From Escallonia rubra (taxonomy: Eukaryota; Streptophyta; Magnoliopsida; Escalloniales; Escalloniaceae), in NCBI GenBank assembly GCA_033065855.1, contig JAVXUO010002628.1, positions 124,001 through 188,000 of the forward strand: a stretch of 64,000 nt of DNA, written 5' to 3'. Position 1 is the first letter of the stretch, and every line of letters starts with the position of its first letter. Both the position numbers and the translations under genes were made by a program. Of this stretch, positions 39,201 to 60,837 are shown in pieces. Under the pieces are notes generated by a model, which did not search any database, was not told the DNA's origin, and was given only the letters and a program-made list of their open reading frames with translations.

Positions 39201-42200
39201 CCACATAACATTGCAAGTGACAGAAGTATGCTTGAAAAATGAGAGTATGGAATGAGTACTCGTAACACATAGGTCATAAAGAAACCTAGTGCAGATTTGA
39301 CCATATTCTTACGTTTTAACTTATATAGTTTATAAATTTTATTTGTTCCAAAGGACTGACGAAGCCCTAAGTAGGTATTAGATTTAGTATAAAGTACCTA
39401 AATTGGCAAGAGGCAAGGCTGCAAGTCAAACCGACAACATGTTCAGCTAATTCAGCTTCATCAATGCACTGCCTTGAATGTACACTTGTAAAATGAGTAC
39501 TTAATTTCGACAGCACCTGTAAGAAAGACAAGTTCTAAATGAAGTTCATCCTCAACTAGGAGGAGAAGAATATTCAGACTGATTCGAACTGAAATTAATA
39601 TTCCAACAACCTCCTCAACAGGTGGGCGTCGCCAACCACTATAGCTGCTTGGGTTCTTGTACTGCCCTTGTTCCCTGACAGCCGCCAAGAAAAGGTGTTT
39701 AGACATTGGAGTAATTTAAAGTTCTGTCTGTAGATATATAAAAGAAATGTCCATTGCCCAAAATCAAGCTATGAATACTTGTGATAATCCAAATTCACCC
39801 ATCAAGAGAGAAAAAACCCACAAAAAGACGGGAAATAAACATGTCTTTATCAGGCATCTTAAGAATACCTATAATAAGATAACATTTGAGTAAAACTTTC
39901 AGAAATCATGTGCCTTGGTTGTGCTTTAAATGACTTTAAAGTACTAAAATGTACCGTAAACTGGTCACCTTGTGAAAAGATGAGCATTGAGCACCTAATG
40001 GTTAATCAAGAGGAAGCCCACTTCAAGTTACTTCAACTCTAAGGTCCCACAAAAAGGTGTATTTGTCTTTTGAAGTAAAAATGAAATTACAGTATAAGAG
40101 CCTTACATTCAGCTATTATGATCATAAAGTCCCTACTCTGTCATATTAGCAAACAGGATTCATTCTTCTGCTTATACCCCGTGCAAAAGCATACTAATGA
40201 CTACCATACTTAGATGCAGAGTAGTGGGGCCATAACAGGGGGTGTAAGTCTGGAAGAGTCCAAGGGTAGGAGCGGCTACAGTAAATAAATCATTATTCTG
40301 AGCATATTATGTATCCCATATATTTTACTACATGTTTTTCTTGAGAAAACTGTATCCCTCTCATCCAGTTTTTATTTAATTTGTACGGTTTAACAGAATA
40401 CGTAGTGAACTTCATGGAGAATTATTGGCAGACGCAAAATAGAGGATGAATCATGTGCCCTGTTTGATTTATCTCTCCGCGTGCAATCGGGGCCTTGCAC
40501 GCAAAGGGAGTGTTAGAGCAAGATACACGTGTTGGGCCCAGTCTCTTAACAGCTTAAGCTTTTAAAGCTACTGGTAACTTAATTAGTGGGGGAGGGCAAT
40601 CAAGTAAAGGATGAAAGGAGGAGAGGAAAAAAATGCCACTAACCTTTTATTGATGTACGCCATAAGCCTATTGGTGAGATAGCAAACTGTATGAGATGGG
40701 TAACGGCTTCGAACAAGGGCAACGTGGTCTGTGAGATATTCATTTGAGACAAGGTTGCAGAACTCCTCAGCCTCATAAACAAGTAATACATATGGAATCT
40801 CAACTCCTCTGGAAGAATGCTGCAGCATATTATGGGGTCAATATCCCTAAAAAATTAACTGTTATCATACTGTATATAAACCATCAAACAACATCAGTCC
40901 CACAAGTTAAAGCATACAACACAACCATGATTATTAACTCGGAATGGTATTTAATAGACACAATAATGCATTTCTAACTTGCACACAATTACTTGATGCC
41001 CATAACACATTGAGCTGATTTCCAGAGCTTAAGCCCAAGGCCAAGCCTGAGTAAGGTAAGGTGCACTTGTATTAGAAATTACTATAAACATATACCATTG
41101 AAACAATTCGTAACAGAGGCACAAACTGATAGCCACACAACAAAAAGATTGCACATCGACGAAGAGGCTAACCAAAATCTCGGCATACTTTTCCTTGACT
41201 TTCATATGCGTTTTGATAAAAGAGTGTTGTACAAGATAAAAAAATTTCCAGCAGAAACCAAATTACTTCAGAAAATAAAAATGAAAGAAAAGACTGAAGT
41301 GAGGTTTTAACATAAAACCAAAGATTCCTATTCTCGAACAGACAACTTGACACGCTAGATAATCTCATCTCATATGGTTAAATAGCATAATATTGCATTC
41401 GATATTATCCTTATAGGACACAAGGCATGACAATCAGCAGCAATCTCTCTCTTATCAGAAATCTGACCAGTGCAAGAACAACAGAAGTAGATAACTCAGA
41501 TTACAACCTACATTACCTGGACTCGGTAAAAATTTCCGGGTCGAATATGTGCATCTAAATTTTCAAGACCGAAAACAAAGCAGCACGGAAATTATTGGTT
41601 TTCTTTTGTTCCTGAGGAAATTAGTGTTTTCTGTAGCCCAAGTTTAAAGCATTGCTGAACAAAAGAAACATATAAAAGATATTTCTTTGTAGAACATCCG
41701 ATGAGAAGTGTTGACCATAAATCCCATACCATGGTCAGCAGTCAGCACACAAAAGATGAAACCCAGGTCTCTGCATGGCCTCTCGCAGAGACAATTTTAG
41801 TTTATTTGTTTCTTTTATGTTTGAATAAGCTCAAAATTTTACTTTATAAACACATAAGGAATACCTAGAAAAGATAGCAATTAGAAGAGATAAGCTTTTT
41901 CTAACTAGTAAGTACTATGACCATTTAAAAGGGGGCGAAAATCATTTCTGGAACAAACAAGCACAGCCATTAGTCATAATAGGAAGAAAAAAAAACCTCT
42001 TACATCAACCTTAAAGCTTAGAGAAGAATATCATATCATAATTTGCAGTACCGATAATTTACGTGCTGTAATACTTTAATTGGCAACAGCACAGCAGGAT
42101 AAAACAATTTAACTTGCTCCACTCCATGAAAATTAGGTGCATTGATGCACGTGTGTGTGCATGGGTTCCGCCGGGCGGGGCAGATATGTATTGGGGATTG

Positions 42201-45200
42201 AACTTCAAGCATTAATTACCTGTGAAATTTGTTCCGGTATATCCATAGTCCATACAATAGATCTTTCAATTGCATTGGAGGTGATATGGTATGTAAGACC
42301 TTTTTCTGCTAACCTTGTAAGCAGACATCCTAAACTAAGAAAGCAAATCACATGCTCAGTACTTAACAGATGATGAGCAAAGTGAACAGAAATTGTATGA
42401 GCAGTTATGGAAGAACCAATGAATACCAAGATATATCTTACCTCCAACAGATCCAAGTTCAATTACTTTAGTATCGATTTCCACCACAATGGATTTTAAA
42501 GCACACTTCCCTGTTTCCCATCTCTTCTTTTCTTTCTGCATTTTTTTCATCTCTACAGCTTCAGCCTTCAAAGCAGCTTTATGCAACTTATCTTGCTGTA
42601 TATAAATATCAATCAGTTAATAGATCTAAAGAACATTCTGCATATTTGTTACTACAAGACAAAAAGACGCACTTCCTTCTGTTGTTTCTTTTCTTTCATC
42701 GACTGAATTCGTTCTTCCTTTGTTATCCTCTTTTTCCGTAAGATGTCATCCATGTTACCTTTCCTACTTGCTTCATTTTTCCTTTTACCTTTAGGTCTCG
42801 GGCCATTCCCCGTCAGTGTCTTTTCGTCAATCTCTTCATCAGTATTATCATGCACCTGCGCAGAACTTCATCAAGCTAATGCAGAAGAGCTAAATGAAAA
42901 AGAGGAACACAACAACTAGCAGCGCCTTCTGGGATACAGAGCCCTGAGACCAATTTTCCAAAAGGAAGTCACCATTTGGAGGCCTCACATACCAGAGATA
43001 CAGCAAGGATTGGTAAAAAAAAAAAACGAGAAGAAACTGAATTTTATGTATGCAAGCAACTGATGACAAGAGAAATTTTACATCAAACAATGAAAACCTC
43101 GTAGAGTGAAGCTAAAACTGCACATTTAAGCTATGTTACATGGACTCGGTATGAGTGTCCGAGTCGGACACGTGTCCAAGTGTCGGGTTCGTCTAATTTT
43201 CAAAACCCAAGACACGGGGACACCGCACAATAGTTCTATCTATATCTATTTTTTAGTTACTCCTCAGGTAAAATGGTGTTTTCCGCGAAGGCACTCTCAT
43301 CTCAAAGCAATAGCGAATTAAAAGAAACAATTTAAGATAATCTTCTTGGTGGTAAATCCTATGAGATGTGTCGGACACATATCCCATACCCATGTCCAAG
43401 TGTCGAGTGTCCGACACGGGTACTTCACGCATTTTGAAGAGGCCATGTAACATAGCATTTAAGTTCCCTACAAATCATGCAGCATCTATTAGTATTGGCT
43501 ATTCACTTTCAGTAAGCCCACCCCAAGGTCTTATGGGTAAACTAGAGCTAAAACAAATCCTGTAGTTAGGAACATAGCACATCAATCCTCAGTGCCGATG
43601 GGACAAAGAAAGATTTACTATCATGGATTCAGCATGCATCAAGAAAAGTACCTGAGGGATCTCTGACATTTTTGGATGCAAGGCACTCTCCCCGCCAACT
43701 TGTACTTTACTAGCATTTCCTGATTAGAAATTAAAAATCTTGTAACTTCGCGGATCTCTCTTTGATGCATTTCCAGAATTCAATGGTAAATCAAATGTCA
43801 TCACCACAATGTCGTACCGATATATAGCAATAGCATACCTTCTGAAAATGTAGATTCAATAAATCCACAGCTTAAATCTGAATCCTTTCCGACTTCAAAA
43901 GGAACAGAAATTGTTCTATTCTGCTTCCAGGTTTCGGTCCCAGAACTATTTTCAGATTCACTATCAGACTCCAAGCATATTAGTTCACTAATTCCTGGAG
44001 AAAGAGATATAATGAAAGGGAGTACATGAAACAGTCCAGTACAACATTGACATAAAACAAATGCCAAGCAGTGACCCAGTGCAACTCGAGTTCAATGGTA
44101 ATACACGAATTGCATAAGACAATCTCTTTCAAGTAGTCGTAAACACGTGATAATACAGCCATGGGAATTAACGTTAACCACCTTAAACACAATGATAAAC
44201 ATACAAGGATACAGCAAAGAAATATGGCAGTACTAGTTCAACGACTCACTTCCAACAAGAGAGAGGTGGAAACAATACAAGAGAAAAAAACCCACAAGCT
44301 TCTTGACTAACTATGAATGCGAAGAACTTTAAAGATCACCACATTTGCAGTGATTTAAAAGCCAGTAGCATAAAAACGAGATATTCCACAAGGCAAAGCA
44401 TAAGCATTAGTCAGAAGACATGCATGATAAGAGTTTATGGCAGTTTTACCGTCAAAATTACTCTGTTCTTGCATATTACTCCCACCGGCTCATTATGAGT
44501 GTCTTGTTTGACAAAACACAAAACTTAAGGAACCATATAAAATAAAGAGCCAACTCATAGCATTTTAAAATTTGTTCCAAAACTGCCCACAGAAACAAAA
44601 GTTTTAAATAAGCACATTAAATATATCGTTTTCCTATTTAAGGTTAAAATCGGAAAGCTTCATACTTTTGGACATTGACTTGCATGCATTTGGTACAGAC
44701 CTAAACAGAAAGCAAGACATTCAAAATGGTATGAAGGGAGTATTTGTAAGAGCGACATGACCCATTACTTGTATATCCACAGTAGCATGTGAAAATTCAA
44801 TCAGATAATAGACTCAACTCGTTGAGGTACGAAGATTCGAGGATTATTAGTCAGCTATAATGTTAACAAAAGTCAATGCCTAGATCTTCTCGTAATTTCT
44901 GCGTCTTTCTACTCGGGTGTAGCCAGGTCCTGCTCTCCCATATGTAGGCTGTCTCTCTAAAGGATTTTGGTCAGTCGGATACCCTCTTCCATGCATGGCC
45001 CTTCACTAGTTTCATATAAATAACAAAATCCCTTTGTGTTCCAATGAGTTATTGTGTTTTACTGCCTCGAAACAAACCATTATTTTTATAATCCGCAAAC
45101 TTGCATATTTCGTTGGTGGGGCTGGGGCCTCAATATATAGTCTCGACTGCCAACTTTTACCTTCTATATCTGATTATAAACAATGATTACGTGGTGGACA

Positions 45201-48200
45201 GACGTTGGTTGTGCTTCAATCAACCGTAATTAATAGATCATCTGTGTGTTGTTGACTTCCAAATCTATTAATTGAGCAGCTGGAGATTAAAAGATCTTAG
45301 CCTTTAGTTTGTGGTTTAAAGTAGTGCCACTTGGCACCGAACAAAAAAAAAACTTGAAAGTCAGATATCTTTACGCTTATGGGCATATTATATTCTCGAC
45401 TCAACACAGCATTTGTCTTAAACTAGTTCAGGTCTGGATACATGCATATTTTACTTCAACACTCTAGGGCCTGTTTGATACTGTGAAAATATAAAGAGCC
45501 TGTAACAAGATTCACACAACAAAGACACATAAACTAGCATGCTGTCTGTTATACTTTAAACATAGATAAGAGGCACACTATAGTGAGATGAACATAGATG
45601 GCAACTTCATTTGCACGTCATGGAAACAGAAAGTGACCTCCTTTATGTGCACAGCAGTCATGTGCTGTTCTTAATTGAGCGGAATGAATCATTTTCACAC
45701 AAGTCACTGTTTGATCTTTAAAAGAGAATATCTGGTATGCCGTACATTCCAGTCATAGATGGTGTAGGTGCATAGATCACCAACAGGTAGTATCGTCATT
45801 AGACTCATAAAGATCAATCATGTGAGAAATCAAGGAGGTGAGTTTGGGGGAGGAGAGAGAAAAACTATAGCCCCAAATACTTTGTACCCTGCATTAGAAA
45901 AAATCTGAAAAATGAAACGTATAATAGGCCTAGCACCATGTGAAGCCTAGTAACATTGCAAACAAGCTATAAAGAAAGACACGTCTACTGCTCTCTATCA
46001 AACAAGCTCTGCTTTGGGATGGGAATGTGCGCAATACCGAGGACTTGCTTCAAGATGCAGCATCCATGATCCAAGATCCCCTTCACAAAAATATAGTTAA
46101 CAAACTCTCTTGGCCCGTCAGATCACAACCTCCTTGAAAACCCATGGGTGATGTGTAAACAAAGACATGGCAGCCTTTTACACTTCGTCTGCCTAATAGC
46201 AACTGTAGACACCCCGTTATTTTAGGCTTTATTTTATTATTTAATTTTTGTAGGCTTTATTTATTTCCAGTCCAGCCCAGTTAGACCAGTCCGGTTAGTC
46301 AATCCAATCAGTTTGTGCTTAACCCAGGTCAAAAATAGATACTTTAGAGAGTATGGTAGTTGAATTTACTTCATTTGCATTGAATTAAAAGGTGCTCTTG
46401 TCCTTCAAGAAACGAGCTTAATAGTATATTAAGATGGATAAGTGTTGTAACACCCCAACCTTTATATTACCTAGCCGCTTAATTTATTTTAAAGCGTGAC
46501 TTTCCTACGCAAGATTTAGCGTAGATTTCCATGAGCGAAGTTTTATCGGCAACCTTTAGCGACAAAATTTTGAAAACCATAAGTTATAAATTAAAGATGG
46601 CAAATATAAGTGATATGGATTGTGGTGCTTAGTGACAATTAGCGTAAACGGTTTTTTTTTTTTTTTTTAATTTTTAGCGACAATGTATTTTTAGCATCGG
46701 TGTATTTATTACCAACTTTTAGAGACAATTAGTGAAGCGGGGTAGCGTAACAAACCCGTTAAAATTTCCTAGCACATAAATTATAGTAAATAATTATTTT
46801 GGACCTGTTTGTAATGATAGAAAGTTGCGGGCAAAAAAGTTTGAATAACTAACAAAAGTTAAAGGGGTTTTTTGTTAATGTGCAATCTAAGGTTTACACA
46901 TATAAAAACCCTTATACCGTGAGCAGCCGTTCCCCCACATTATCTCCTTCTCATTGTGAATTATAGGTAGAGAGAGAGAGGAAGAGAGAACGTGAAGAAG
47001 AAATCTCCGGCGATCGAATCAATTTTTCCGGTAAGTTCTTTTTTAGCCTTTCTCTCTATTTATTTATGGGTTACGGCTGTGAAGGGGATAAGGGGAAGCT
47101 GCCGTGGGGTTGGATCTATGTGACATTGTGTGAGCCTGTGTCTTAAGTGTAAGATCAGTGAGAAGCTGTGAAGGGGGGAACACCTGCCGAGTGTGTAGTA
47201 TGTATTTTTAATGCCGATAGTAATAGGTGGTTTAAGCAGGTCACATCCATGGTGGCTGTGACTTTTTACCTGTGTGGATGTGTGCGTATATGGGTGTGTT
47301 TGCATGAATGTGTGTATGTGAGAGGAGAGGTGAGGCTGCCAAGATGACAGTGTGAGTCTATGACTGCTGGGTGTGTGTGTGTGTGTTTGTGTGGAGTGTG
47401 TGTGAGTATCGGGAAAAAAAAAGACAAGAGACCCACTGCCATGAGGCAGTGGGTGTGATAATGTTTGTATGTGTGAGTGTATGGGTGTTTTGTGTGTATA
47501 TATGACTGTGTGTACGTGCTTTGTGTGAGATGTATGGGCATGTGGGGAGAAGGGTATTTGAGAAGTGTGAACTTGTGAGGGGTGTGAAAGGTTGCAACCC
47601 TGAAATGTGGCTGTGTGTATTGTGGGAAAGAAAGTGAAGTGAGTATTGTGGGAGTTGTGTGTGTTCATGTGAGAAGTGGGCTTGGGAGAGGTGAAATGGG
47701 TTGTTTATTATGTGCTTAACAGTGTGCTTTATGTGTGTGTGGTGTGGCTTATTGTGTGCAAGGGTGACTGAGTGTGGGGAAAGAAAAAAAAAGGGAGAAG
47801 GGAAGACCCACCGCCGTGAGGCAGCGGGTGTGGAGAGAATTATGTGCTTGTGTGTATGTGTGATATAAGTGGGTTCATGGAGAAAAGGGTATGCATATGT
47901 GTAGTGTGTGCTTGCACAGGTGAGTGTGTGAGTTCATGTGTTCTGGGAAGAAGGCTGTGGGCAGAGGATGTAAGAAGAAGAAGCTGCACAGCAGCTATGA
48001 TTGGTGCAGTATAGGTGTGTGAGTAATGTGTAAATAAGGGGGAAAACAAAAAGGAAAGGAGGGGCTGCCATGAGTGGACCTGTGTGTGTGAGAATGAGTT
48101 TCTGGTCAGTGGGCAGAGGATAAAAAGGAAGAAGATGAAGTGGGTATTGAGTCACAGCAGTGGGTAGTACCCTGTGCAAGCACAGGTGTACCACGGGTTA

Positions 48201-49166
48201 ACGTTAGGTACGTCGTGCGCATTGGATAGTGTACAGTGATCATTAACACGTGAAATTTTAAAGTATAATACCTTAGGCTATATTAGAATTTCTAGCAAAA
48301 TTTTATAATTTTCTGAGATCATTTGTTTTTTTAATATTTTCTGTAAGCTCAGATTTGTAAAATCTTTTGGAGTCTTAAAAAACTCATGAAAAAGTTCTGA
48401 AAAAATTAGAGTAATGTTTTTATAGTATAAATAAGCCTCAGTTTAAGTTTGGTGATTTTTAGAGTTGATTTGTTATCATTTCTGTATCACATTGATTTTA
48501 CCAAAACGAAAAATTTTAAAATAGTTTTGATGTCCTAGGAAGCACCGACACCTCTTATAGGACGAGGTATGGTGTCCGACACTTACCGACACCTCACCGA
48601 CACCTCCGGACACGTGTCCGACACCTCTCAGCGGTGTCCGAATTTATTTATTTATTTTTTAATTACCGGACACCATGTCGGACACCTCTTGAAGAAGTGT
48701 CGGACACCTTGTGAAGAAGTGTCCACTCGTATGGGGCCAAAATACAATATTTCAAATTTATTTGAGGGATAAATTTGGGATTTTTTAGAAATGAACTTTT
48801 AGGCCAAACCTTAATTAGATCGACCCAACAAAATGTACCTTCTTCTTTCTCTCATCCCTTTGTCTTTTCCATGCTTTTGTTGCCTAAAGTATCCAAGTTT
48901 GCCGGTCTAGAAGATAGGTCAACATCTCCGACCTCATGTACGGACCATGTGACTATATAAAACCTCTCCTTCATGCCTTTGGATTCATGTTTTTTTTCCT
49001 TATCTTGTTATTGTTGAGACTCTAATCTTGGTACTGTTGAGACATTCAACTGTTTTCTTGTTGCCGACCTTTTTTCTTGTTACCGTTGAGACTATTTCAT
49101 GTTACTTGCTTTCTTTCTCATCTATTTTGAACGAAATTTAGTTGCTCCAATTGAGATGTGTGTGTG

Positions 49167-49231
<65 letters not shown>

Positions 49232-52200
49232 AGCGGTGTCCTGCGGTGTCCAAAATCTGGTTTTTTGAAAATTGCGGTGTCCGGTGTCTCGGTCAGTGTC
49301 CGTGTCCGTGTCCGTGCTACCTAGTTGATGTCTTTTAAATTTTGATTTCAATTTCTAGAATTTTCATAAGTATTCTAAAGCTGTTATAAAAATTATGGGA
49401 CTTTATTTTCAGCTAAAAGCAATTATGGCTATTAATGGATTTTTATAGCATTTAAAGAAATTATTTTTTAATTAAAAATTTTAGAAAATTCATATTTTGA
49501 CTTTATATAATGTTTTAAGCTATAAAATTGTTTTATTGTAATTTATAATAAATTTGGGGTAATGTTAATCATTAAAAAGTGTGCGAGATTTTCGATTAGG
49601 TTGGCCGTGTGAGGGGCCCGCTTTGGGTTGCGTCGTTCCGGATTAGGAGTGAGTACTTTTTGGGTAGTTGATATTAGGGTTATAGTGTAACAGTGTAGAT
49701 TGTTTTTTAATAAATGAATTGCCAATTTTGGTTAATTCAAGGATTTTGGATCGAGGTTGATTAGCTTCGCGTAGCTTGGATCGATGGAAGGAATTCCATC
49801 CGAACCCTACTTCATCATTTTGATTTAAAAAGTCTTTACGAATTCTATTGAACTCTGATTTTATAATTTTCATTAAAGTGTAAGGAATTTTATCCGAACC
49901 CTAGTTCATTACTCCGATTTCAAATGCTTATAATAACAGTTTTTACAAACTACATTGAATTTTTATTTTTATGATTGATATAAAAATGTTTTCAAATTTG
50001 CCCATGAAACCCTAATTTGAGCCTTGTAGCAATTGTTTGGAATTCTTGTCCATTCTCATCTGTTTATTGATTCAATCATCGTAAATCATTTTCCATTGTA
50101 TTAATTTCTAAATGTTGATATGAGTTAGTAATTCTGGGAGTTATAAGGATGGTGCATATGGTTGGAGTTATAAGGATGGTCTGTTTAGGGGCGGAACCAG
50201 AAAAAATTTTCAGGGGGTGCAAAAATTCTATCGAATGCACCCACAAAAAAAATTATAGTAAAATAATATTATATAGAGATTTTTTTAAATCTCTATATAA
50301 TCACTGAAATTAAACTATACTAATGTTTCGATACTCAAAATTTTAGAATTAAACTCTAGGTTTATGATACTTTTAATGTACAAATATATTTGTATTGACA
50401 TCTATATACATGCAAAATAATCCAAGTCTGTAGCATAAGTATCGACATACAAATATAAAATAAATAATAACAATAAATTAACGATAATTTACCAAAACAG
50501 TGGGCCACTCCGTCAAGCACTCAAGTCTCAAGTAGACAACACTCAACAGACAAATTCACCACGAATTGGGATGAAGCAACATACAACAGACAAATTCCCA
50601 GCAGCAAATCCCAGCAATCGTCCGTGCAGCAGCTCGCGGTCGCCGACAGCCGACAGGCTGATTGGGTGAGGCACTCCGTCAAGCAGATCTGGTGACTGGT
50701 CGCGTGGTCGGACGCCGAACAAAGACTCGGAGATTTGGTCACCGGCGGAGTGCCGTTTCTTCAAGATCTGGTCGCCGGTCGGAGATCTACAAGGTAGGTT
50801 CAAACCGTTCAGTTGCGTGGCGTCACCGGCAATATGCCAGATCTAGTCGCCGGTCGTTACGTCCACTGTCCACCGGTGAGAGAGAGAGAGAGAGAGCGCC
50901 GAGTTGTGGTCTCGGGGAACGGGGTATCGGGGATGGGGGAACAGCGTCTCGGGAACGGGGTGGTGCGATTCCCAAAAACCAAAAAATATATATATATTCA
51001 GAAGTGAGGGGTGCTTTAGCCCCCCTTGCCACAACATAGGTCCGCCCCTAGGTCTGTTGGTTGGGTTAAACTATAGTCAGTGTACGTATGCATATGTAAA
51101 GTGTATCAAGCATTACCGGGGTGGCTATACTATAGTGTACTGCTCATGTTCAATGTTACGTCTAATTGTTTTATTAGACTTGAAATGCTTTGAAATGACA
51201 ATTGATTGAGGGATTGAGTTGTCCTCGTCCCTATGTCTATAATGAAATGCTATGGTTTTATTGAAGATCCTTTTAAAAGTTTTCATTTGACTTTATATAA
51301 AAAACCGTTTGAATCGTTATATTTTGTTATCATTGATCGACCTTACTGGGCTCGACTTTATATGAAAAATCGTTCGAATCGTTATATTTTGTTATCATTG
51401 ATCGACCTTACTGGGCTCTCAAAAGCTCACTTTCATTTGACTTCCTTTCCGCAGGTGATAACCAGCATTAGGTTGCCTGAGTAAGGAATAGAACCGAGTG
51501 AAAGAGAAAGGGATTTAATTTTGGTATTGATCGTTGGAACCCCTGCGTGGGTAAACTTCTCTAGCTTGTTGATTCGATTTATATTGATTTGATGAATTGT
51601 AATGATTAGAAGCTCTGATCTAAGTGTTAAGTTGGTTATTTGAATCGAGGTTTGTATGTCTTTAAGTAGTGATTGTTCTAACGCTCCGGGAATTTTCGGG
51701 TTGTTAAAGCTCCGGATTTCCGGGGTGTTACAAGTGTACCAGCCAGTTCTCCTTTAAACCTAATAGTTTTCCTTACTGCCTTAAATGTACCGGCCGGTAA
51801 GGGTATTTTGGTCTTGTTGGGTCTTTTTCATCTTATCTCTTTGTGGCGATAGTTAGTCTCCTTGTGTGACTCTTTTGCTCCCAGACCTCTATATCAACAG
51901 CCCTAGTCAGCCCCAAAAGTGAAAGAAAGTTAGAAAGAGTTCAGTTCGGGCTGGACTATCTAGTCAAGTTACCAAAGTTTTGGACACGAAGGCATACTCA
52001 AATCGGCCAATCCGATTTGGGTTGCCAGTAATATCAAACAATAGCTAAAGATGAAAATTATGAGCTATGTGTAACTAAGGTTGACACTAAGCCTTAGCGA
52101 GGACGCTAAGGAATAAGAAGGGGAGGTTGTGATATCCCACATTAGATTTGGGATCGAGATCTGCCAAATAACACCCTAACCATGAACTCATAAGCACCTG

Positions 52201-55200
52201 CTTGGCTAGCCATTGTCCTGTAATGGGGCCGTCGGTATCCTATATATTTCATGAAGTTTCCAAATCATCCATATTCTTCAACAACTTGGGATCAGCTGCA
52301 TGACTCTTGTTTCACCTTTTTCAGCTCTATGCCTCTGGCTTGGGCCATATTACTTCTTAAAACTGTGTTTCACCTTTGAGTTTCTTGTTTTCATCTTGTC
52401 TAATTTGACCTTGACAAGGCGTCACTATAACTCCCAATGATCTCAATTTCTATTTTCCAATACCATGCACACCGACATTAAGGTGTATCATTATGCACTC
52501 GAGATCCCTTGTAAAAAATGTAGACCTTCCTATCCAGCATCCTCTCCTGTAAGTGTTTCAACAGAGGTCCCATAAAAATGGCGTCTGGAGCCTCACATGG
52601 ACAGTGGGACAGAGGATCCTTTGTGAGTCTGGACAGTGGAACAGAGCATCCATCGTGAGTCTGGAGCACAGCCTAATTTTAATACATGTGTACAAGTTCC
52701 TTAGTGGAGTTTCAAGGCAACTCATGCTGTCAATATTATAACCTTTGTACAGCCATATGAACCTTGATTTAGTCATAATATATATCGCGAAGTTTGCTGA
52801 ACAATGGTGTGCCTTCGGTTTTGGCTTTCTAGAATTGTACCAGCTAATGGCGGAAAGAGGGGGTTATTAATGTCAAGAACAACCTTTGAATTTGGCTTGA
52901 GAACTTACTTACTGGGCTTTAAGTCCGGAGGATAAGGGGGTATTTAATATCCGAAAGAATCGCATATCATGTTCCAAATAAAAATTCATAACTGGAATGA
53001 ACTAAACCTTGCTGCAGCCTAGGACAATCATAAGCAATTTTACTAGCATTTTACTTACAACACAGATGACAGAAGCCCATCAAAAGAAAGAAACCAAGAT
53101 AACTTAATTTCAACAATGCGATGGATTCGTGCCTCATCTTGCTACTATTGTTACTTTGTGATCGTGGGAAAGGCTAAGAATATCCTTATGATCGTTCTTT
53201 CAACAACATTTCTTAGCACGGGAGGAAAAAAAACCACATTGTGTCTTAGTTAAAATTTCCTACTGAATGAACTAAACCTCGCTGCAACCTAGAACAAACA
53301 TCATCAGTTTGACTAAAAATTCGTCACTTACAATATAAATGAAGATAACTTACTTTGAGCAAACTAGCCCAACAGCTTCAGCAAACTTAATTTCTATGTT
53401 AATCAAGAAAAACAAATCAAGATGAATTAATCCAACAAACTAACAGAAAATGAAATCTCAACCAACTTAACCCTACGGTTTCAACAAACTTAATTTCGAC
53501 ATAAACCAAGACAACTTAATTTCAAAAACTAACAGAAAATGAAAACTTACCCGACGGTTTAGGGTCAAGAAATGAAGAAGACCCAAGTTTGGGATCTGAC
53601 ACGCCACTGGTGCATTTGACAAGTGAGAGATCTGACAATGGGGTTTCAGGGACAAACGATGAGGTGGACGTGGAGGCCAGCGGCGGCGGCTTGCGAGGGG
53701 TTGGGTCATCATCAATGACGAATATATCATCCTTTGTGCAAACAGCTGTCATTTTTCACATACGTCAGTGTTTAATTTCTAAAATAACATTTCTGAAATA
53801 CGGTACATTTTGATGATATATCATTAGGTGCATACTTACCAACTGGAACTAACATCATTGTGCTCATATAGATCAACTATGGGAGAGATCAAGGAGGTGG
53901 ATTTGGAGGAAGAGGAGAGAGATAGAGAGTATAGCCCTCAGTTACTTCAATTCCTATCTAAATGATGAGAGGTGCTTATAGGCCTAGCGCCATGTGAAGC
54001 CTAGTCAAGTCGCAAATAAGCCAATCAAGATAGGACACGTGTCCACTACTCTATCTGAAAAATGTCTAACTAGTACTGCTGCAGAAAGGAATATGCAGTA
54101 CTGACTACTGATGACTGACTTCGGGATACCCCAACATGACCCTTGGCCCACCAGACGACAACCTCTAAAGACCCACGGGGCAGTTTTTGTCCACTTGAAC
54201 CGCCTAATAGGAGCACACGCTCATATTGTGCGTATGCTTTAGCACAAGCACCATCCACATTTATCAGTATCCTACACATAGTATGGGAGTTTCCAAATCA
54301 TCCAGATTCTTCTACAACCTGGGGTCAACTACATGACTCTTGTTTTGGTCTTGTTTGAATTTGATTTTTAAACAGCAGCACTATCCTCCAAATGAATCTC
54401 GATTGCTGTTTTTCAATAACATATGCAGTAACATAAGTGTATCACTACGCAACTCTAAAGCTCTTATCAAACATGTGGGCCTTCCAACTGTAGGCTCTCT
54501 ACCTTTAGCATCCTCCCCCAACTTTGTTTCAAAAAACTCTCCTGAAAATGAGGTGTAGCTCATTCATGCCTCGTCTAGCTAATACATTCCTCACGTGTCA
54601 CAGGACCCTTCGAGAGTCTAGAGATGACCCTGATTTAAATACCTCTTTTCATTGATGGGTACAGGTTCCTTTATGAAGTTTTAATGCTGTCAGTGTTGCA
54701 GCTTTTGTGCAGCCATATTGACCGTCTCGCTCTAGCTTTAAGATAATGTGAACTTCAATAAGCAGTGGTGTGCCTTGCTTTTGGCTTTTCTAATAATTGT
54801 ATCGGCTACATGGGGAAAAACGGGTTTATTGATGCCAAAAGAAAAAAAAATCTGTATTTGCCTTCAAAACGTACTTCTTTAGCCACTTAACAAAACTTAC
54901 TGGCTTTGTCTAGAGGATTAGTAGCACAAAGTGAAATTAAATTGTCTTCGTACAAGCTAAAGGTTGATCAATTCCAAGCAACACATAGTTACTAAATACT
55001 TTTACTATTAGAATCTTCGTCCAGAGTAGTGGTCTACATGTTTACTTGTCAACACACCATATTCTGGTGTGGACACCATGAGATCCAAAGGATTACTTTC
55101 TTAATGATGTTATCCACATTAGCTGTGGATATAAAGCGAAAGAAAATTTTCAGAACCCGATTCTGAGACCTGACCATGCTTGTAACTTTGTTGGAGCATT

Positions 55201-58200
55201 GCAGGTTTCAGCTAGTTTACTAATTATTGAGGGATCTGGTGACTCTGACCTAAATGTGGCACGATACGATCAACCCAAATTGTACTGCATCTCCCTCTGA
55301 TAGGTCATCATCATCATCAGCCTTTCTCCCAAATTGGTTGGGGTTGGCTACACCAATCCTTTTCTTCAGTTCCTCCTATCAAAGCACATGCTCTCTGTTA
55401 AATTCTTAGCAATCAAGTTTTTCTCTCACTACTTCTCCCCGAGTTATCCTCGGTCTACCCCTACCTCTGCTTACCCCATCAACTTGGCGCAAATCACTTC
55501 TTCTTACGGGGACATCTACAGGCCTACGGGTGCATATGACAAAACCACCTCAAGCAATGTTCCCTCATCCTTTCCTAATCGCACCACCCTGACTTTGTTG
55601 AGGTATCCTCAATTTATATTCTATCCCTCCCAGTATGGTACCCTCGTCTTATATGGCTGGAGCTTCTGAGCCATACAACGTCATTGTTTTTGAGGTCCTA
55701 TAGAATTTCCCCTCAACTTGGGCAGGAATGTTCAAACAAAACAGCCCAGATACAGACCTCCACTTTAGCCAACCTGCTATGAGCAACATCCTCGTCGATC
55801 TCTCCCGCCTTGCGCATTGCTAGTCCAAGATATCAAAAGATACTTCCTTAGCCATTTGTTGATCATACATATTTACCTCCTCCGCTGGCCTCCTCCTAGT
55901 TTTACTAAAATTACACATTAAGTACTCCCCTTAGTCCCGCTTAACCTAAAGCTAACTTCAACTTTTGTCCTACTCTACAATCATCTAATCAAATTATATC
56001 ATCCGCACATAAACATGCACCTCAGTTTCTCATCCTAAAGACTCTTAGTGAGCTCATCCATAATAAAGGAAAAAAAACAGAGAGATGGGCTTAAAGCTGA
56101 CCCTTGGTGAAGACAATCGTAATTGGGAACTCACTAGTCATTACATCTGTTGTTCCCGCACTAGTTGTCGTTCCGTCAGATATATTCTTCATCACACGAA
56201 CAAAGTTGGTAGGCACTCCATTCTTCTAAGCCACCACATAACTTTTCTCGGTACCTTCCTCTGTGCCTTTTCCAAATCTATAAAGACTATGTGAAGATCC
56301 TTTCTCTTCGCTTTAAACCTGTCCATCAATGGCCTAATCAAGAAATTAGCTTCTGTAGTGGATTCACCATGCATGAAATCAAATTGATTCTCAGATATTA
56401 ATCTCCCTTCTTAGTCTATGTTCAATTACCTTCTTTTCTAAAGCTTCATAGTTTGACTCGTGATCTTAATCACTCTATAGTTGTTGCAGTCTCGGATGTC
56501 TCCTTTGTTCTTATATGCAGGTATCAAAGTGCTTTTCCTCCACTCGTCGGGCATTTCTTTAAATTTAAGATCTTGTTGAACAACTTAGTCAACCATTCTG
56601 TAGCCACGTCACACATGCTTCTCCAAACGTCAACAGGAATACTGTCTGGTCCAATATTCTTCCCTATTTTTCATCATTTTCATAGCTTTCTTCAATTCAA
56701 AATTAACCAATTCTGCGAACAAACCTCAACTAAAGAGCTTATCAAAGTAACCTTGGCATTCTGACCTCGTCTAATTTGAAACTTCGATTCTCATCCTTGA
56801 TACACTTTACATTCAAGTACGTGCTTCTCCTTACACTCTCCTTAACTAGCTTGTAAATTATTTTTATCACCCTCTTAATAACCAACCTTTGGTATCAACT
56901 TCAATAAGCCTTACCTTGCCTCTGTCACTGACTTCTTTGCTTCCTTTCTAGCCATCTAATACTTCTCAAAAGTCTCCCCATTCCTGCACCCATGAAATCA
57001 TTCACAACATTCCCTCTCTAACTTATTTGCTTTTGGACCTCCTCATTGCACCACGAAGTTTCTTTACCTATATAGCCTGATGCAAAACAGAGAATCAAAC
57101 ATAAAAAGAAAGACTTATGTCACCCTCCCGCTAGGGTTCTGCTGACTCGCAGGCCATCTGTCTCACCCTTGCTAGAGTTCTACCGATCCACCGACTGTTT
57201 GTTTCTTCCTCCGAAAATTGGCATGCTCGCAGGCTCAAGAAGTTGAATCTGTGATGCTTTCTTTGAAACACTGATCTTTGATGCTTTCTTCGAATACTCA
57301 AATCCAATGATGCAACTCAGAGAACCAATGAATTAAAAGATAGACTTGAGTCACTTTCCTGCAGGGACAAAGCCCACAAGCCATTCTTGTCACCATCGCA
57401 AGGGCTTCAACGATGCACAAACCGTTTGCATCTTCCTCACAATAAATTAACTTCCCTCAGGCTAAAGAAGATAGAGGACACACCTTTCCTCCAGATAACT
57501 CTCAAATCCCAATTGTTCATTAACTTTTAGATAATAGGGATTACAGCTTAATTTATAACGACATCTAACTTCATCAACAATAGATGTAATCTGCTAAAAT
57601 ACAAAAAAGAACCTAATACAAGGACTTACTACTTTAATAACCTAAATCCATAACTATTAATACATTAAAGTCACAATTTCCCACAACAAAAACACCATAC
57701 AACTACAGTGCAGTTCCAGTTCCAGTCGTGTTAACCACATGCAAGTGGTCCTCATCAGCTGAGGACCTCTCTAACAACTCTCTAAGCGCAAGTAGACATC
57801 TCAATCCACATTGTACTAAGCTCATCAACCGAATACCACGTTCCTTGATTAATGAACATGTCCTTAGAAGTGCTTAATCTTTCACCGTTCGAATTTGACC
57901 ACCTAATTATCGGAGGTCTCTCATCTTTAACCCTCCTATTCCAACTCTTAATACATATATCCAGCACCACCAACCCATCTCGTGAAACAAGATACACCCG
58001 GGAATGACCTTGCAATCCTTACATGACGCTCAGTCATCCCTCCCAGTGAAAAAGAGATCTATGTGGCTATAATGAGACTCACTACTGAAAATAATTGAAT
58101 GTCAGCTTATTTTTCTTGAAAAAAGGTGTATGCAATAATCAAATCAAAGGCCACTGCAAAATCTAGGACGTCTTCTCCTGGTTCATTGCTATCTTTAAAA

Positions 58201-59962
58201 CCAAGTCCTCCTTCTCCCTTCTAAAGCTGGCTATTCTAATGTGCCCATTCAAATCTCCACATATATAACTTCTCCTCATGGGGTATTCGCAGAGATCAAC
58301 CCCATTTATTTTCCATTAGCTAGCACCCTACCTGTTATTGCTAATGTCAACATCTTACAAATTTTTATCCGTTTAGACGTATCTCTTCGACACACCATCA
58401 CCATAGGAGTCAGCAAAAGCGAATCTTTCATTGGTTCAGCAATAAGACCTTCGGGGCAAAATGATTATTTCATGCATGTTGTCCAAACATAACAAAGCTA
58501 ACATTGTATCCAAATGTGCGTTAAGTTAGAAAACCTACTAAACCAGATGAATTGATGTTTAGACGGCCAAGGACCTTGATCACCGTTAACATGTGATTAA
58601 ATTTATGTTTCATCAGGGTACTGCAATTGGAGAAAGGCCAATCCTCGAACGATCGTCGTCAATTGACTAAACTTCACTTACAACATAAAAACAACAAAAT
58701 CCCATTAAAAAGTGCAAGCCCTCAACAAAAAATTGTACCAACTTTCGAGTAAGAATTTCCAATTGAGATGAACTAAACCTCATGGCAACCTAGAAAAACC
58801 ATCATCGAATTTATTAGAATTTCACTTACAACTCAAAAACATGAAAATCCATCAAAAGACATAAACCAAGATAAATCAATTCCATCGATGCGAATTGATT
58901 CATGGCTCATCTTGCTTCCTTGCTTACTAGTACACTTTCTAATACTGGAAAAAAGGACTAAAAACATTTGTATAATCATTCGTTCAACGACATTTATCAA
59001 CGGAGAACACGAAAGAATGAAAATCCGAAGTTAAAGCACGAAAGAAAAGATCATATCATGTCTTAATAGAATCTCCTACGAATCTCCTGCTGAATGAACT
59101 AAACCTCACTGCAACCACATCAATTTGACCAACACTTCACTTACAACTCCGAATTAGCAAAGACCCATCAAGAAACACAAACCGCGAGAACCTAATCTTC
59201 TTCGGTAAGCAGGAGGAAAAAATAATAATCTTCTGACCATAGATAAATGAAACTTAGAACAATCATTATCATTTTTGACTAAAAATTCACTTACAGGTGA
59301 AAATAATAAAAAAAACATTCAAGAAAAGCTAACCCAGATAACATGATTTAAGAAAGCCGATAGAGATTTGAACTTACTCGATGATTTAGGGTGAAGACAT
59401 GACGAAGGCCCAAGTTGGGAATCGGAGACACGGCTAATGGTGCATTCGACACTTGAAAGATCTGGAAATTGACTAAAATTTCAGTCACGCCTTTTTAACG
59501 AAAAACCCATCAACTAAAACAACCCCCGCCAACTTGATGACAGAAGCTAATAGAGAATGATAAATTAGGGCCACTTGGAAATTAATTAAAACTTCACATA
59601 CAACTCAAAAACAACAAAACATGTCCATCAAGAGAAACAACTTATTTTGAAAATTTACTCAAAAATTTAGGTTCAGGGAATGAAGAAGGCGCACGGCTGG
59701 TGGTGCATTTGACGATTGAGAGATCCGTCATTGGAGTTTCGGGCACGACCAATGGGGTGGCGGTGGAGGGGGTGGTTTTCTGAGGAGTTGGGTCATCGTC
59801 GATGAGGAAGACTGTGGTACTGATAGGGTTTGGATTGAGGTCTGTTGTTCTTGGTCTCTTGGATTGGGTTTCGGGTGGAGTTGAGATGGCATGTTTTGGG
59901 AAGTGGGTGTCGTCGGAATCGGAGTCGGAGAGCACTATGTCCACTGCAATTGGGTGAGACAT
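21300..59962 (-). CDS. EME1: Crossover junction endonuclease EME1, about 38.7-kb gene
   Basis: Exons in transcript order: 59659-59962, [59378-59461 optional], 53551-53745, 43839-43994, 43652-43719, 42673-42855, 42442-42595, 42220-42329, 40644-40819, 39611-39674, 39398-39516, 29897-29983, 22739-22853, 21300-21482. All are GT-AG with matching phases. The product is 572 residues without the 53551 exon, 637 with it, 665 with both extra exons; plant EME1 is about 550. Matches to plant EME1 include KWIKN-free N-terminal VPETPMTDLSIVKC, the basic coiled segment KRITKEERIQSMKEKKQQKE, CALKSIVVEIDTKV, IPYVLLVYEAEEFCNLV, HSRQCIDEAELAEHVVGLT, LVAIPKVQPRFAIAIWKKYP, and C-terminal RLGEVCSKRVYRILM. Family role: nuclear non-catalytic partner of MUS81 in cutting flaps, forks and Holliday-type junctions during repair and meiosis. 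Introns are hugely expanded by transposons, yet every exon is open. The start at 59962 is an ATG in good context (AAAAAATGTC). EME1A versus EME1B is not decided. Confidence 0.88.
22010..22645. repeat. Degenerate MITE-like repeat with duplicated 3' end
   Basis: Lies in the last EME1 intron. It opens with CCCGTTTGGTTAATC and closes with two related blocks of about 100 bases (22443-22540 and 22541-22645), each ending AACCAAACATCC/ATCAAACATCC followed by AAGGTAATC/AAAGTAATC. GTTTGGTT...AACCAAAC ends are common in plant MITEs. No clear target duplication was found, so the class is open. Confidence 0.4.
23332..23887 (-). repeat. 3' LTR of the gypsy element
   Basis: It starts TGTCACGGCACTAACGACTT and ends TTCGTGACA. 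It is the left LTR on the + strand but the 3' LTR in the element's own orientation, because the purine tract abuts it. Confidence 0.85.
26558..27113 (-). repeat. 5' LTR of the gypsy element
   Basis: Second copy of the same LTR, ending TTCCGTGACA and adjoining the primer site at 26543-26556. Confidence 0.85.
27114..28775. other. EME1 intron sequence, unremarkable
   Basis: AT-rich intron sequence between the gypsy element and the MULE-like element. I see no gene and no clear element ends. Confidence 0.6.
28776..29682. mobile_element. MULE-like non-autonomous element in EME1 intron
   Basis: Imperfect terminal inverted repeats of about 80 bases: the left arm has GGTTGCAAAAACACA and TGTCATTTGTTG, and the right arm carries the reverse complements of GGTTGCAAAAACACA and TTTCATTTGTTG. 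The flanks are A-rich (AAAAGAAAA versus AAAAAAAAA), so the target duplication is not certain. The centre (28950-29480) is GC-rich and contains a decayed tandem array of about 60-base units around CTGCCTCCAACGAC (29030-29250). No transposase is seen. Confidence 0.65.
30409..30455. repeat. Poly-C and AG microsatellite
   Basis: A C-rich run passes directly into AAAAAGAGAGAGAGAGAAG. Confidence 0.8.
30713..31050. repeat. MITE-like inverted repeat
   Basis: The ends GCTGGCAACTTAAGCTAAGT and, inverted, GCTGACAACTTAAGCTAAGT are followed by GTTGTCAGTGCGATC and GTTGCCAGAGCGATC. Related text occurs near 33790-33860 and 36920-36970, so it is a dispersed family. No clear target duplication was identified. 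Confidence 0.55.
31051..32020. other. EME1 intron sequence
   Basis: AT-rich, with a TATATG-rich start. No supported gene or element ends. Confidence 0.5.
32024..32900. mobile_element. Possible TIR element, GT/AC-rich
   Basis: The left GGATGGTCGTCCACATAAAG and the right part, read inverted as GGACGACCGTCCAAATGAAG, form degenerate inverted ends, as in some MULE-like elements. The left half is C-rich (32100-32460) and the right half G-rich (32540-32850). No target duplication was found, so the call is tentative. Confidence 0.4.
33000..35660. other. EME1 intron, simple-sequence rich
   Basis: No gene seen. Contains GGTGGC/CCACCA-rich low-complexity stretches (33940-34600) and a local duplication: GGAAAACATCAA and GTTTTGATGTTGG/GTCTTGATGTTGG blocks near 35215-35280 recur near 35350-35400. 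Confidence 0.5.
35661..36718. mobile_element. Non-autonomous hAT element
   Basis: It begins CTAGGTAGCACGGACATG and ends, read inverted, CTCTGAAGCACGGACACC. The flanks are GTGGTGAT (35653-35660) and GTTGTGAT (36719-36726), an 8-bp target duplication with one difference. The right subterminal region (36540-36680) is packed with GTGTCCGACAC/GTGTCGG motifs, and the left carries the same words. It holds an AT microsatellite at 35777-35798 and no transposase. Confidence 0.75.
37010..37212 (+). repeat. Microsatellite-linked tandem duplication, 105-bp offset
   Basis: TCTAGACATATATCTAG followed by a GGCTAATCC/GGCTGATCC and AAGAAGCCCCTATTTGTTTA block occurs at 37047-37105 and again at 37152-37212, separated by CA/TA repeats. 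A GT/AC repeat precedes the first copy. Confidence 0.8.
37308..37431 (+). repeat. 61-bp tandem repeat, two copies
   Basis: Two copies of a unit containing CTCTCTCTCTCTCAATTGCC, CACCACCACAGTCA and GACCGCCGCCATCACCAC, with an offset of 61 bases (CAATTGCC at 37323 and 37384). Confidence 0.8.
37640..37990. repeat. GGT/GGTTG-rich low-complexity stretch
   Basis: G- and T-rich text of GGTGGTGG and GTTGGTTG words. Open frames on both strands here are products of composition. Confidence 0.7.
38220..39006. mobile_element. Non-autonomous hAT element with GAA array
   Basis: The ends CTATGAAGCACGGGTGCG and CACCCGTGTCCATGCTTCCTAG-type (read inverted, CTAGGAAGCATGGACACGG) are flanked by a perfect 8-bp target duplication ATATGGGC (38212-38219 and 39007-39014). 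Subterminal zones repeat GGGTGCG on the left and CGTATCC/CACCCG on the right. The centre holds a GAA trinucleotide array. No transposase. Confidence 0.82.
38531..38625 (+). repeat. GAA trinucleotide repeat
   Basis: About 30 mostly GAA/AAG units with short A and G interruptions, inside the hAT element at 38220. Confidence 0.9.
39064..39083. repeat. GT dinucleotide repeat
   Basis: Ten GT units just outside the hAT element. Confidence 0.85.
39675..40643 (-). other. EME1 intron, no inner feature
   Basis: 969-base intron between the exon ending INK(R) and the exon starting EQGQYKNPSS. No transposon ends or gene are seen. Confidence 0.7.
40820..42219 (-). other. EME1 intron, no inner feature
   Basis: 1400-base intron between the exon ending DIPEQISQ and the exon starting HSSRGVEIPY. 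AT-rich, with nothing else recognised. Confidence 0.7.
43131..43455. mobile_element. Short hAT MITE in EME1 intron
   Basis: Perfect inverted ends CTATGTTACATGG/CCATGTAACATAG with an 8-bp target duplication CATTTAAG (43123-43130 and 43456-43463). Both subterminal zones carry GTGTCCGAGTCGGACACGTG-type and GTGTCCGACACGG words, like the larger elements at 35661 and 48535. It is 325 bp and non-coding. Confidence 0.88.
43995..45769 (-). other. EME1 intron, first part
   Basis: Intron sequence upstream (in gene sense) of the exon at 43839-43994. AT-rich, with no gene and no certain element boundary. Confidence 0.6.
46206..46445. mobile_element. Probable older LTR remnant, left side
   Basis: Starts TGTAGACACCCCGTTATT exactly where duplication unit 1 stops matching unit 2. 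With 51738-52150 it brackets the LTR-like unit at 46446, which suggests nesting in an older fossil Ty3/gypsy-like copy. No target duplication was found. Confidence 0.35.
47060..48180 (+). repeat. GT-rich zone with repeated hairpin motif
   Basis: About 1.1 kb dominated by TGTGTG-type words. A perfect hairpin CCCACTGCC-ATGA-GGCAGTGGG lies at 47432-47453, with a decayed counterpart CCCACCGCC-GTGA-GGCAGCGGG at 47807-47828 in a similar setting (A-run before, GGTGTG after), about 375 bases apart. A third faint echo (CTGCCATGAGTGG) lies near 48066. Confidence 0.6.
48535..49324. mobile_element. Non-autonomous hAT element nested in the LTR-like unit
   Basis: The ends CTAGGAAGCACCGACACC and, inverted, CTAGGTAGCACGGACACGG are flanked by a perfect 8-bp target duplication TTGATGTC (48527-48534 and 49325-49332). 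The left subterminal zone has many GTGTCCGACAC/CCGACACCTC words. It contains GT and AT microsatellites (49156-49224). No transposase. Confidence 0.9.
49156..49224. repeat. GT-AT compound microsatellite
   Basis: GT units followed by about 25 AT units, inside the hAT element at 48535. Confidence 0.9.
50186..51050. mobile_element. Non-autonomous hAT element nested in the LTR-like unit
   Basis: The ends TAGGGGCGGAACCAG and, inverted, TAGGGGCGGACCTATG are flanked by a perfect 8-bp target duplication GGTCTGTT (50178-50185 and 51051-51058). Its left part contains the ATTGACATCTATATACATG-type repeat also seen at 2780-4090. The right part is GC-rich. No transposase. Confidence 0.88.
51738..52150 (+). 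mobile_element. Fossil Ty3/gypsy-like 3' remnant
   Basis: Ends in a purine tract (AAGAAGGGGAGGT) followed by TGTGATATCCCACATT, the usual join of an internal region to a 3' LTR in plant gypsy elements. Only a remnant is visible. Confidence 0.35.
53551..53745 (-). CDS. EME1: Duplicate EME1 N-terminal exon (copy B)
   Basis: It reads VCTKDDIFVIDDDPTPRK, then SSFVPETPLSDLSLVKCT and SSFLDPKPSG, ending at a strong GTAAGTTTTC donor. A CAG acceptor precedes it, making a 195-base phase 1-1 exon that fits between copy A and the exon at 43994. An in-frame ATG at 53752 also allows it to be an alternative first exon, giving a 538-residue product. Copies A and B are clearly homologous. The open frame and good splice sites suggest it is used, but this is inferred. 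Confidence 0.7.
55303..58300 (-). mobile_element. RTE-type LINE relic in EME1 intron
   Basis: Read on the - strand it ends in a TGATGATGATGATGA-like tail (about 55303-55320), typical of RTE LINEs. Upstream, translated text matches RTE reverse transcriptase: MPDEWRKSTLIPAYKNKGDI (about 56490-56550) and KRKDLHIVFIDLEKA (about 56250-56310). Near 57870-58020, QGHSRVYLVSRDGLVVLDIC and KSWNRRVKD match the linker after the endonuclease, and 58100-58250 has a DLNGHI endonuclease stretch. Frames are broken throughout. About 700 bases (57070-57775) do not fit the LINE and look like an insertion. Confidence 0.75.
57070..57775. repeat. Unidentified insertion within the LINE
   Basis: Two diverged tandem blocks (around 57110-57250 and 57340-57480) share AAAGA(A/T)AGACTTATG/TTGAGTCAC, CGTTTG/CTGTTTG and CTTCCTC words. 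Not a recognised family. It separates the RT and endonuclease parts of the LINE. Confidence 0.4.
59378..59461 (-). CDS. EME1: Partial duplicate EME1 exon (copy A2), possible mini-exon
   Basis: Diverged copy of the last part of the N-terminal exon, reading LSSVECTISRVSDSQLGPSS and then CLHPKSS. It has a TTTCCAG acceptor and a GTAAGTTC donor, is 84 bases long (a multiple of three), is open and is phase 1 at both ends. It could be included without shifting frame. It lacks the IDDDPTP and VPETP part. Whether it is spliced in is unknown; it may be a decaying duplicate. Confidence 0.45.
59659..59962 (-). CDS. EME1: EME1 first coding exon (copy A)
   Basis: It starts MSHPIAVDIVLSDSDSDD and continues to VFLIDDDPTPQK, VPETPMTDLSIVKCT and SSFPEPKFL, ending in phase 1 at a GTAAAT donor. 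Two hydrophobic-acidic strings (IVLSDSDSDD and VFLIDDD) look like SUMO-interacting motifs. It aligns with the N terminus of plant EME1, which has a similar DSDPTPQK...VPETPLSD...VVKC order. Confidence 0.85.
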
Positions 59963-60837
59963 TTTTTGAGATGCAAGGAAGGAATTGTGCAAGTGTGTAG
60001 AGGGAGAGGTCTACTTGTCTTCGAATTTAGCGCGGGATTATAGATACAAAGAGAGGAGGGCCCAACCCCAACAAATTCCTAATATGTTTACCATTTTCGT
60101 TCTCTCAGTTTATTTTTTGTTTCCATTTTGTGTGTATTTGTTTTGTAGATGGGTGCAAACTCTCGTTTATTTATGTTTTTTTTTATGTTGTTTTTCCTCA
60201 CATCATCATGTTCCTTCAGCTTTTTCATCGCATGTTTTAAATCGTATTTTTTCAAAATGCTCCTACTTTTTGCATTGTGATTTACTTTAACACCCTTAAG
60301 TTCTCTTCACATTATTGATGTTTGACAAAAGAGGGCCCACCGGTAAGTTTTCCACCGGATCAAGCTTGACTTTGGAAATTTTCTAGACGTCCCATTTTCT
60401 TTTGTTAGCAAATCTGGACCATCCCAACCGACCACCATCAATACACCCCCAACCCACCCCCTTCCCCTTAATTGCTGGTTGTGGATGGTATTGTGATGGT
60501 CTTAGCGGTAGTTGTCGGTAAGGATGAGAGTTTTGCGATGAATCAATTTTGTAGGTGTGGTGGTCAGTGGTTAGATGTTGCTGTGATGTTTATGATGGCG
60601 GTTGTGGCCAAGGATGAAGTTGGTTATGAATCAATGATTTGGGTGTGATGGAGGTGGTGATTTTGCTGGATATTAGTAGGCAATAATGAGATAATTGGTC
60701 GTAGGTATAGCAGTAGTGGTGATTGTGACTGTGGATGAATGAACATCGATGGCAGTGATGGTCGTCAGTCGTGGTCCAATTGATTTGCTAGCGATTGTTT
60801 ATGTGTTAGAGGGCGCTTGATAATTGTGGGATCAAAT
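59963..60837. other. EME1 upstream region
   Basis: Contains the EME1 promoter and leader on the - strand just above 59962, then AT-rich text and a GTGGTGATG-rich stretch (60480-60760). No core promoter motif stands out and no other gene is seen. Confidence 0.5.

Follow-up and report, generated by a model that had tools for sequence, protein, structure and literature searches.

The EME1 gene of Escallonia rubra contains more than one copy of the exon sequence that specifies part of the protein's N-terminus, which raises the question of how the additional copies arose and whether they are spliced into EME1 transcripts or persist as relics. The analysis covered a 64,000-nucleotide stretch of contig JAVXUO010002628.1 (positions 124,001 to 188,000; assembly GCA_033065855.1), termed here the window, in which a complete plant EME1 gene lies on the minus strand, extending from 59962 to 21300. 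The model in which exon A (59659-59962; 304 nt), the first exon, is joined directly to exon C (43839-43994), the next exon and one common to every isoform, comprises 12 exons and 572 codons followed by a TGA stop. Exon A provides the start codon, a SUMO-interaction motif (SIM)-like VFLIDDD, VPETP and LSIVKC, and ends at the donor TGA/GTAAAT, while exon C encodes the SIM-like LICLESDSES. The remainder of the gene model, likewise on the minus strand, consists of exons D (43652-43719), E (42673-42855), F (42442-42595), G (42220-42329), H (40644-40819), I (39611-39674), J (39398-39516), K (29897-29983), L (22739-22853) and M (21300-21482), the last of which contains the stop. The encoded protein matches the ERCC4 domain (PF02732; E = 5.1e-11, 43.1 bits against a Pfam cut-off of 24) and the EME1-MUS81 C-terminal domain (PF21292; E = 8.9e-10, 39.1 bits, cut-off 27.4); two further Pfam rows were weak and fell under the cut-off. 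Its nearest relatives of solved structure are EME1 and not MUS81, the matches being the EME1 chains 9f98_B (E = 9.9e-6) and 2ziv_B (E = 7.4e-5), followed by a third and last match at E <= 1 to SWI3 (0.72). The window also holds mobile-element sequences away from the N-terminal exons. Within the EME1 intron 29896-22854, pieces of a Ty3-type gag and integrase end lie in the gene sense at 23916-26222 (minus strand). Copia-type retrotransposon pieces (gag, integrase and RVT_2) occur on the plus strand at 10481-12991, downstream of protein-kinase exons at 5454-6577; since the kinase gene runs on, as judged by eye, to about 15953, this element would be inside a kinase-gene intron.

The original prediction was that the N-terminal exon of EME1 is duplicated with open frames and matching phases, and the window bears this out. 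Exon A (59962-59659) and a second copy, B (53745-53551, minus strand), encode the same block in phase, IDDDPTP...VPETP...LS(I/L)VKC, the sequences being VFLIDDDPTPQK...VPETPMTDLSIVKCTTSR... in A and IFVIDDDPTPRK...VPETPLSDLSLVKCT... in B. As had been stated, B is 195 nt long with phase 1 at both ends and is frame-neutral, A-C and A-B-C each having one terminal stop; it carries the SIM-like IFVIDDD and the donor CGG/GTAAGT. What had escaped attention is a partial third copy of the exon-1 tail, A2 (59378-59461, minus strand; 84 nt; phase 1-1; donor CGA/GTAAGT), which encodes LSSVECTISRVSDSQLGPSSCLHPKSS, corresponding to the last 27-28 codons only, and thus lacks the IDDDPTP motif. A VSD.(K/Q)LG stretch is common to A2 and B and absent from A. 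In a self-comparison of the window with 51501-60300 as the query, the A/B match had E = 4e-14 and the A2/B match E = 1e-15, and a DNA search of the species' own genome (566 Mb, 3222 contigs) with B returned two places, B and A. When the window was searched by tblastn with the A, A2 and B peptides at E <= 1, no further credible copy was seen among the best 8, 8 and 7 of 33 rows, the best other rows being proline-rich stretches (E = 0.004 with the B query and 5e-4 with the A query). Part of exon D (43664-43711, minus strand), SKVQVGGESALHPKMS, is weakly similar to the end of A2, SDSQLGPSSCLHPKSS (tblastn against the window with the A2 query, E = 0.043), a resemblance that is probably due to chance. 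The copies allow products of 572 (A-C), 600 (A-A2-C), 637 (A-B-C) and 665 residues (A-A2-B-C), each with one terminal stop, while the ATG at 53752, in frame with B, gives 538 residues. The isoforms of 572, 637 and 538 residues that had been proposed are thus reproduced; the list was incomplete because A2, whose acceptor is better than that of B, allows the 600- and 665-residue products.

The arrangement of the surrounding intron points to the origin of the copies. In the order of the gene, the tail of A is followed by intron, X1, B, intron, X2, the rest of the intron and exon C, which is the layout of a tandem duplication, and self-comparison identified collinear repeats, all in one intron, with 68-83% identity in individual blastn pieces. 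An intron block of the first unit (58750-58995) matches its counterpart in the second (52979-53211). X1, the intron sequence before B (53753-54876), is paired with X2 (45692-52910), such that 54876-54262 corresponds to 52910-52232 and 54060-53753 to 46002-45692 (all minus strand); about 200 nt between the matching parts of X1 have no match, and X2 is interrupted by about 6.2 kb that has no counterpart in X1. This 6.2-kb region (46003-52231) contains TG-rich stretches as well as a direct repeat of 65 bp (51289-51418). A LINE-like remnant lies between A2 and B on the minus strand (55250-58018, limits by eye), with RVT_1 detected in one of its six pieces at E = 0.0034, under the cut-off. Small intron repeats of 26-56 nt occur at 58662-59619, with spacings of about 150 and 310 nt in this first unit, and at 53039-53555; their presence in both units indicates that the intron is a short degenerate array.

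The duplication junction (53730-53752, minus strand) comprises the start of B together with its acceptor. It matches the intron beside X2 (45639-45661) with a score that none of 3000 shuffles reached, and the sequence preceding B displays no similarity to the upstream part of exon A. The breakpoint lies inside exon 1, and hence the first bases of B, amounting to about six codons, and its weak acceptor are derived from the intron, a feature that the original prediction had not recognized. At the aligned place X2 reads ACTG and B reads ACAG, and thus the AG of the B acceptor is not common to X2; the acceptor CAG of A2 corresponds in the alignment to a CAG within the exon sequence of B. Divergence amounts to 22-26% of aligned sites between the exon copies (0.26 for A/B) and to 28-32% between the introns, which indicates that the duplication is old. 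At a plant rate of 2e-9 to 7e-9 substitutions per site per year, the intron K2P distances of 0.35-0.42 would place the event, as a rough estimate, tens of millions of years ago. The extent of divergence, 26% of aligned sites between A and B, rules out an assembly artefact or haplotype duplication; a retrocopy is ruled out because the intron was copied along with the exon, and a chance resemblance of the copies by the self-comparison E-values and the junction shuffles. The locus thus displays homologous adjacent copies, a flanking intron copied collinearly, and splice sites with compatible phases (the B acceptor being weak), as expected of tandem exon duplication. The copies do not have the character of mutually exclusive exons, as their joint inclusion (665 residues) and joint exclusion (572 residues) both keep the frame. 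On the evidence of the sequence, it is very likely that B is the product of a tandem duplication of the exon-1 tail and the intron that follows it.

The quality of the splice sites was assessed with matrices built from the 11 introns of the A-C model of this gene, using 2167 other intronic GTs and 2238 other intronic AGs for comparison. The B donor is equalled or beaten by 0.5% of the intronic GTs, and its score of 8.8 compares with no more than 8.3 for any genuine EME1 donor left out of the matrix. The claim of a strong donor is upheld. The CAG acceptor that had been described alongside it exists, but is weak, as 23% of the intronic AGs score as well and there are four T residues in positions -20 to -4. 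It should be emphasized, however, that two of the 11 genuine acceptors, when left out of the matrix, fall under the score of B, and one genuine acceptor also has four T residues; the B acceptor would thus still be usable in principle. For A2 the acceptor ranks in the top 2.4% of intronic AGs and the donor in the top 3.7% of intronic GTs. The donor of exon A (59653-59661, minus strand), another feature not noted previously, scores lowest of the 11 A-C donors, each left out of the matrix in turn. As A2 and B keep GTAAGT, the donor of the original copy may have relaxed after the duplication. The A-A2 intron, 197 nt long and 44% T, resembles other short EME1 introns, while the A-C intron would extend over 15.7 kb. 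The splice-site scores and this typical 197-nt intron suggest that, contrary to the original emphasis on B, A2 is the likelier of the two to be used. We consider it probable that A2 is spliced into EME1 transcripts, and give even chances to the use of B at an appreciable level.

A second line of evidence concerns selection on the copies. An alignment of A and B spanning 50 codons contains 40 differences, distributed 13/6/21 by codon position and changing 19 amino acids, with dN 0.213 and dS 0.824 (NG86); dN/dS is 0.54-0.57 for A versus A2 (21 codons) and 0.39-0.43 for A2 versus B (26 codons), and A2 looks less constrained. None of three indels in the exon pairs A/B and A2/B is off-frame, compared with three intron pairs that together have 24 indels, 21 of them off-frame. 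A fourth exon indel (A2/A, 18 nt) is in frame and overlaps other exon indels, and in a codon alignment made by hand the A/B gaps of 6, 3 and 18 nt all preserve the frame. In simulations conditioned on the 40 differences, B evolved neutrally and A under constraint (omega 0 to 0.5). Six or fewer second-position changes then occurred with a probability of 0.007-0.028, a statistic chosen after the counts had been seen, while 19 or fewer amino acid changes had a probability of 0.05-0.28 and the absence of a stop one of 0.40-0.55. For a neutral B, the absence of a frameshift is expected with a probability of 0.16-0.33. The joint probability of the second-position count, no stop and no frameshift was 0.0007-0.0045, with frameshifts treated as independent. 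When the simulation was instead clocked by the introns (K 0.32-0.45, A omega 0.2), a neutral B reproduced the amino acid and second-position counts without a stop in 0.03-0.18 of runs. Amino acid changes affect 3 of 22 positions in the motif blocks and 16 of 28 in the linker (Fisher P = 0.003); the blocks were picked after alignment and the comparison is not counted as a test. B has kept its frame, its motifs and its donor. Neutral evolution of copy B in relatives had been named as an observation that would refute the original prediction; judged by comparing the copies with each other, the data lean modestly against neutrality and towards constraint on B, short of being decisive.

The retained motifs suggest what inclusion of B might achieve. 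SIMs consist of a hydrophobic core, psi-x-psi-psi or psi-psi-x-psi, followed by acidic residues, a pattern fitted by VFLI followed by DDD in A, IFVI followed by DDD in B, and LICL followed by ESDSES in C. A2 has no SIM-like motif, and the duplicated block contains one SIM-like core and two TP sites. Within residues 1-230 of the A-C product there are two SIM-like clusters, against 0.088 expected from 5000 shuffles (P = 0.0026), with both the pattern and the limit set post hoc. The pattern also matches VLLVYEAEEF in the ERCC4 domain, which is probably not a SIM. By inspection, VFLID and IFVID do not conform to the (V/I)-X-(V/I)-X-(V/I/L) consensus given in the accessible text of a study of fission-yeast Eme1 (PMC9032445), as the fifth residue is not hydrophobic; VDIVL, located close to the beginning of exon A, does conform to it. 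According to the same text, residues 1-117 of the yeast protein contain two working SIMs and kinase sites that are required when the Rqh1 helicase is absent. The Escallonia protein resembles fission-yeast Eme1, as described there, in having SIM-type motifs in its N-terminal region, which in the yeast is poorly structured and regulates the nuclease; in the yeast, however, SUMO binding was demonstrated by two-hybrid assay and mutation, while for Escallonia the likeness is one of motifs alone. Whether the VFLIDDD-type motif works as a SIM we regard as evenly poised.

The explanation that we favour begins with a tandem genomic duplication inside EME1 that took in the 3' end of exon 1, the intron behind it and the further intron stretch X. 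The join would have set the end of X directly before codon ~50 of exon 1, and its position implies that B kept the strong parental donor while an intron-derived CAG would serve as acceptor; both sites are observed and it is their use that is predicted. A2 would have come from a smaller duplication, which copied ~84 nt from the end of the exon together with intron and provided an acceptor at the position of the aligned exonic CAG, and the intron would subsequently have been stretched by DNA of the mobile-element-like kind that is in part observed there. Most likely A2 would be routinely spliced in and B included in some transcripts, yielding EME1 of 600, 637 or 665 residues. With B, the putatively regulatory N-terminus would gain a second VFLIDDD-type SIM-like motif together with two TP sites, and inclusion of B would be predicted to increase the valency with which SUMO or kinases control MUS81-EME1, leaving the nuclease core untouched. 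Taken as a whole, the proposal that duplication made cassette exons of A2 and B, the latter varying the number of motifs in the EME1 regulatory tail, is one that we consider somewhat more likely than not.

The most substantial competitor is that B, and perhaps A2 too, is an unused relic, splicing being A-C or A-A2-C and B a pseudo-exon that is open by chance. The weak, intron-derived acceptor is in keeping with this view, as is the proximity of the exon A/B p-distance (0.26) to that of the introns (0.28-0.32). A neutral B is also expected to lack a stop about half the time and a frameshift in roughly a sixth to a third of cases, and in the intron-clocked simulation a neutral B matched the counts in 0.03-0.18 of runs. 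In contrast, the 13/6/21 distribution of differences, the lack of off-frame exon indels, a donor better than every genuine one left out and the low joint neutral probability of the same-exon test all argue against a relic, which we judge to be a real possibility, if the less probable one. B could alternatively be a first exon, transcribed from a promoter in X1 and starting at ATG 53752, so that the 538-residue product would lack the first SIM-like motif of EME1. Such a separate start had been suggested, and the sequence permits it, as the ATG is in frame with B; X1 moreover contains, as seen by eye, a TATA-like box as well as a CT-rich stretch, together reminiscent of an LTR (53753-54134, minus strand). 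The ATG, however, is located in intron-derived sequence at the duplication junction, and the duplication left out the start and promoter of exon A; this reading is very improbable. It is also improbable, to a slightly lesser degree, that X1 and X2 are two members of a mobile-element family, with the exon tail and intron block duplicated by another route. The two blocks in which X1 and X2 match, of ~600 and ~300 nt, keep their order and strand, each X comes after an exon-tail and intron block, the match reaches the junction inside B, and the self-comparison with 51501-60300 as the query revealed no third X in the window.

Tandem exon duplication with recruitment of splice sites at the duplication breakpoints is a known type of event, an example being a potato RdRp gene (PMC4974935). 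As far as the potato gene is described in the text available, it and the Escallonia EME1 locus both underwent tandem duplication across an exon-intron boundary of a plant gene, with some splice signals inherited and another supplied by sequence of the duplicated region. They differ in that the potato donor is exonic and the acceptor inherited, while in Escallonia B the donor is inherited and the acceptor intron-derived, and the A2 acceptor has an exonic CAG as its aligned counterpart. The potato duplication, moreover, is later than the split of potato from its relatives, while the Escallonia copies have diverged by ~22-32%. In Arabidopsis EME1 the block occurs once. The Escallonia protein is, like Arabidopsis EME1A and EME1B and rice OsEME1, an ERCC4-domain protein with a long N-terminal region, OsEME1 being described as disordered at residues 1-94, 107-168 and 220-326, with a coiled coil and the ERCC4 domain (PMC12205872). 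In contrast with the Escallonia locus, that description, in the portion available, mentions no repeated N-terminal exon. Among the open-access titles and abstract openings listed, no repeated N-terminal exon in a plant EME1 was found. The available portions of PMC6747210 and PMC7042379 hold nothing decisive on a repeated EME1 exon; the latter, an alternative-splicing review, contains a table that gives EME1A and EME1B a plus.

If the copies are unused, the locus is a clear fossil of a duplication breakpoint within an exon, which created a chimeric exon ready for splicing, its beginning taken from intron and its remainder from exon. If they are used, E. rubra would provide a natural series of EME1 isoforms, varying in how many SUMO-like docking motifs the N-terminus carries, with which to test the influence of motif number on a crossover nuclease. 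That A2 and B are old, conserved and regulated cassette exons, rendering the SUMO valency of EME1 tunable in this plant lineage through proteins of 572 to 665 residues, is unlikely on present evidence; were it true, the presence of one or two VFLIDDD-type motifs would alter the recruitment or activation of MUS81-EME1, for example in meiosis as opposed to somatic repair.
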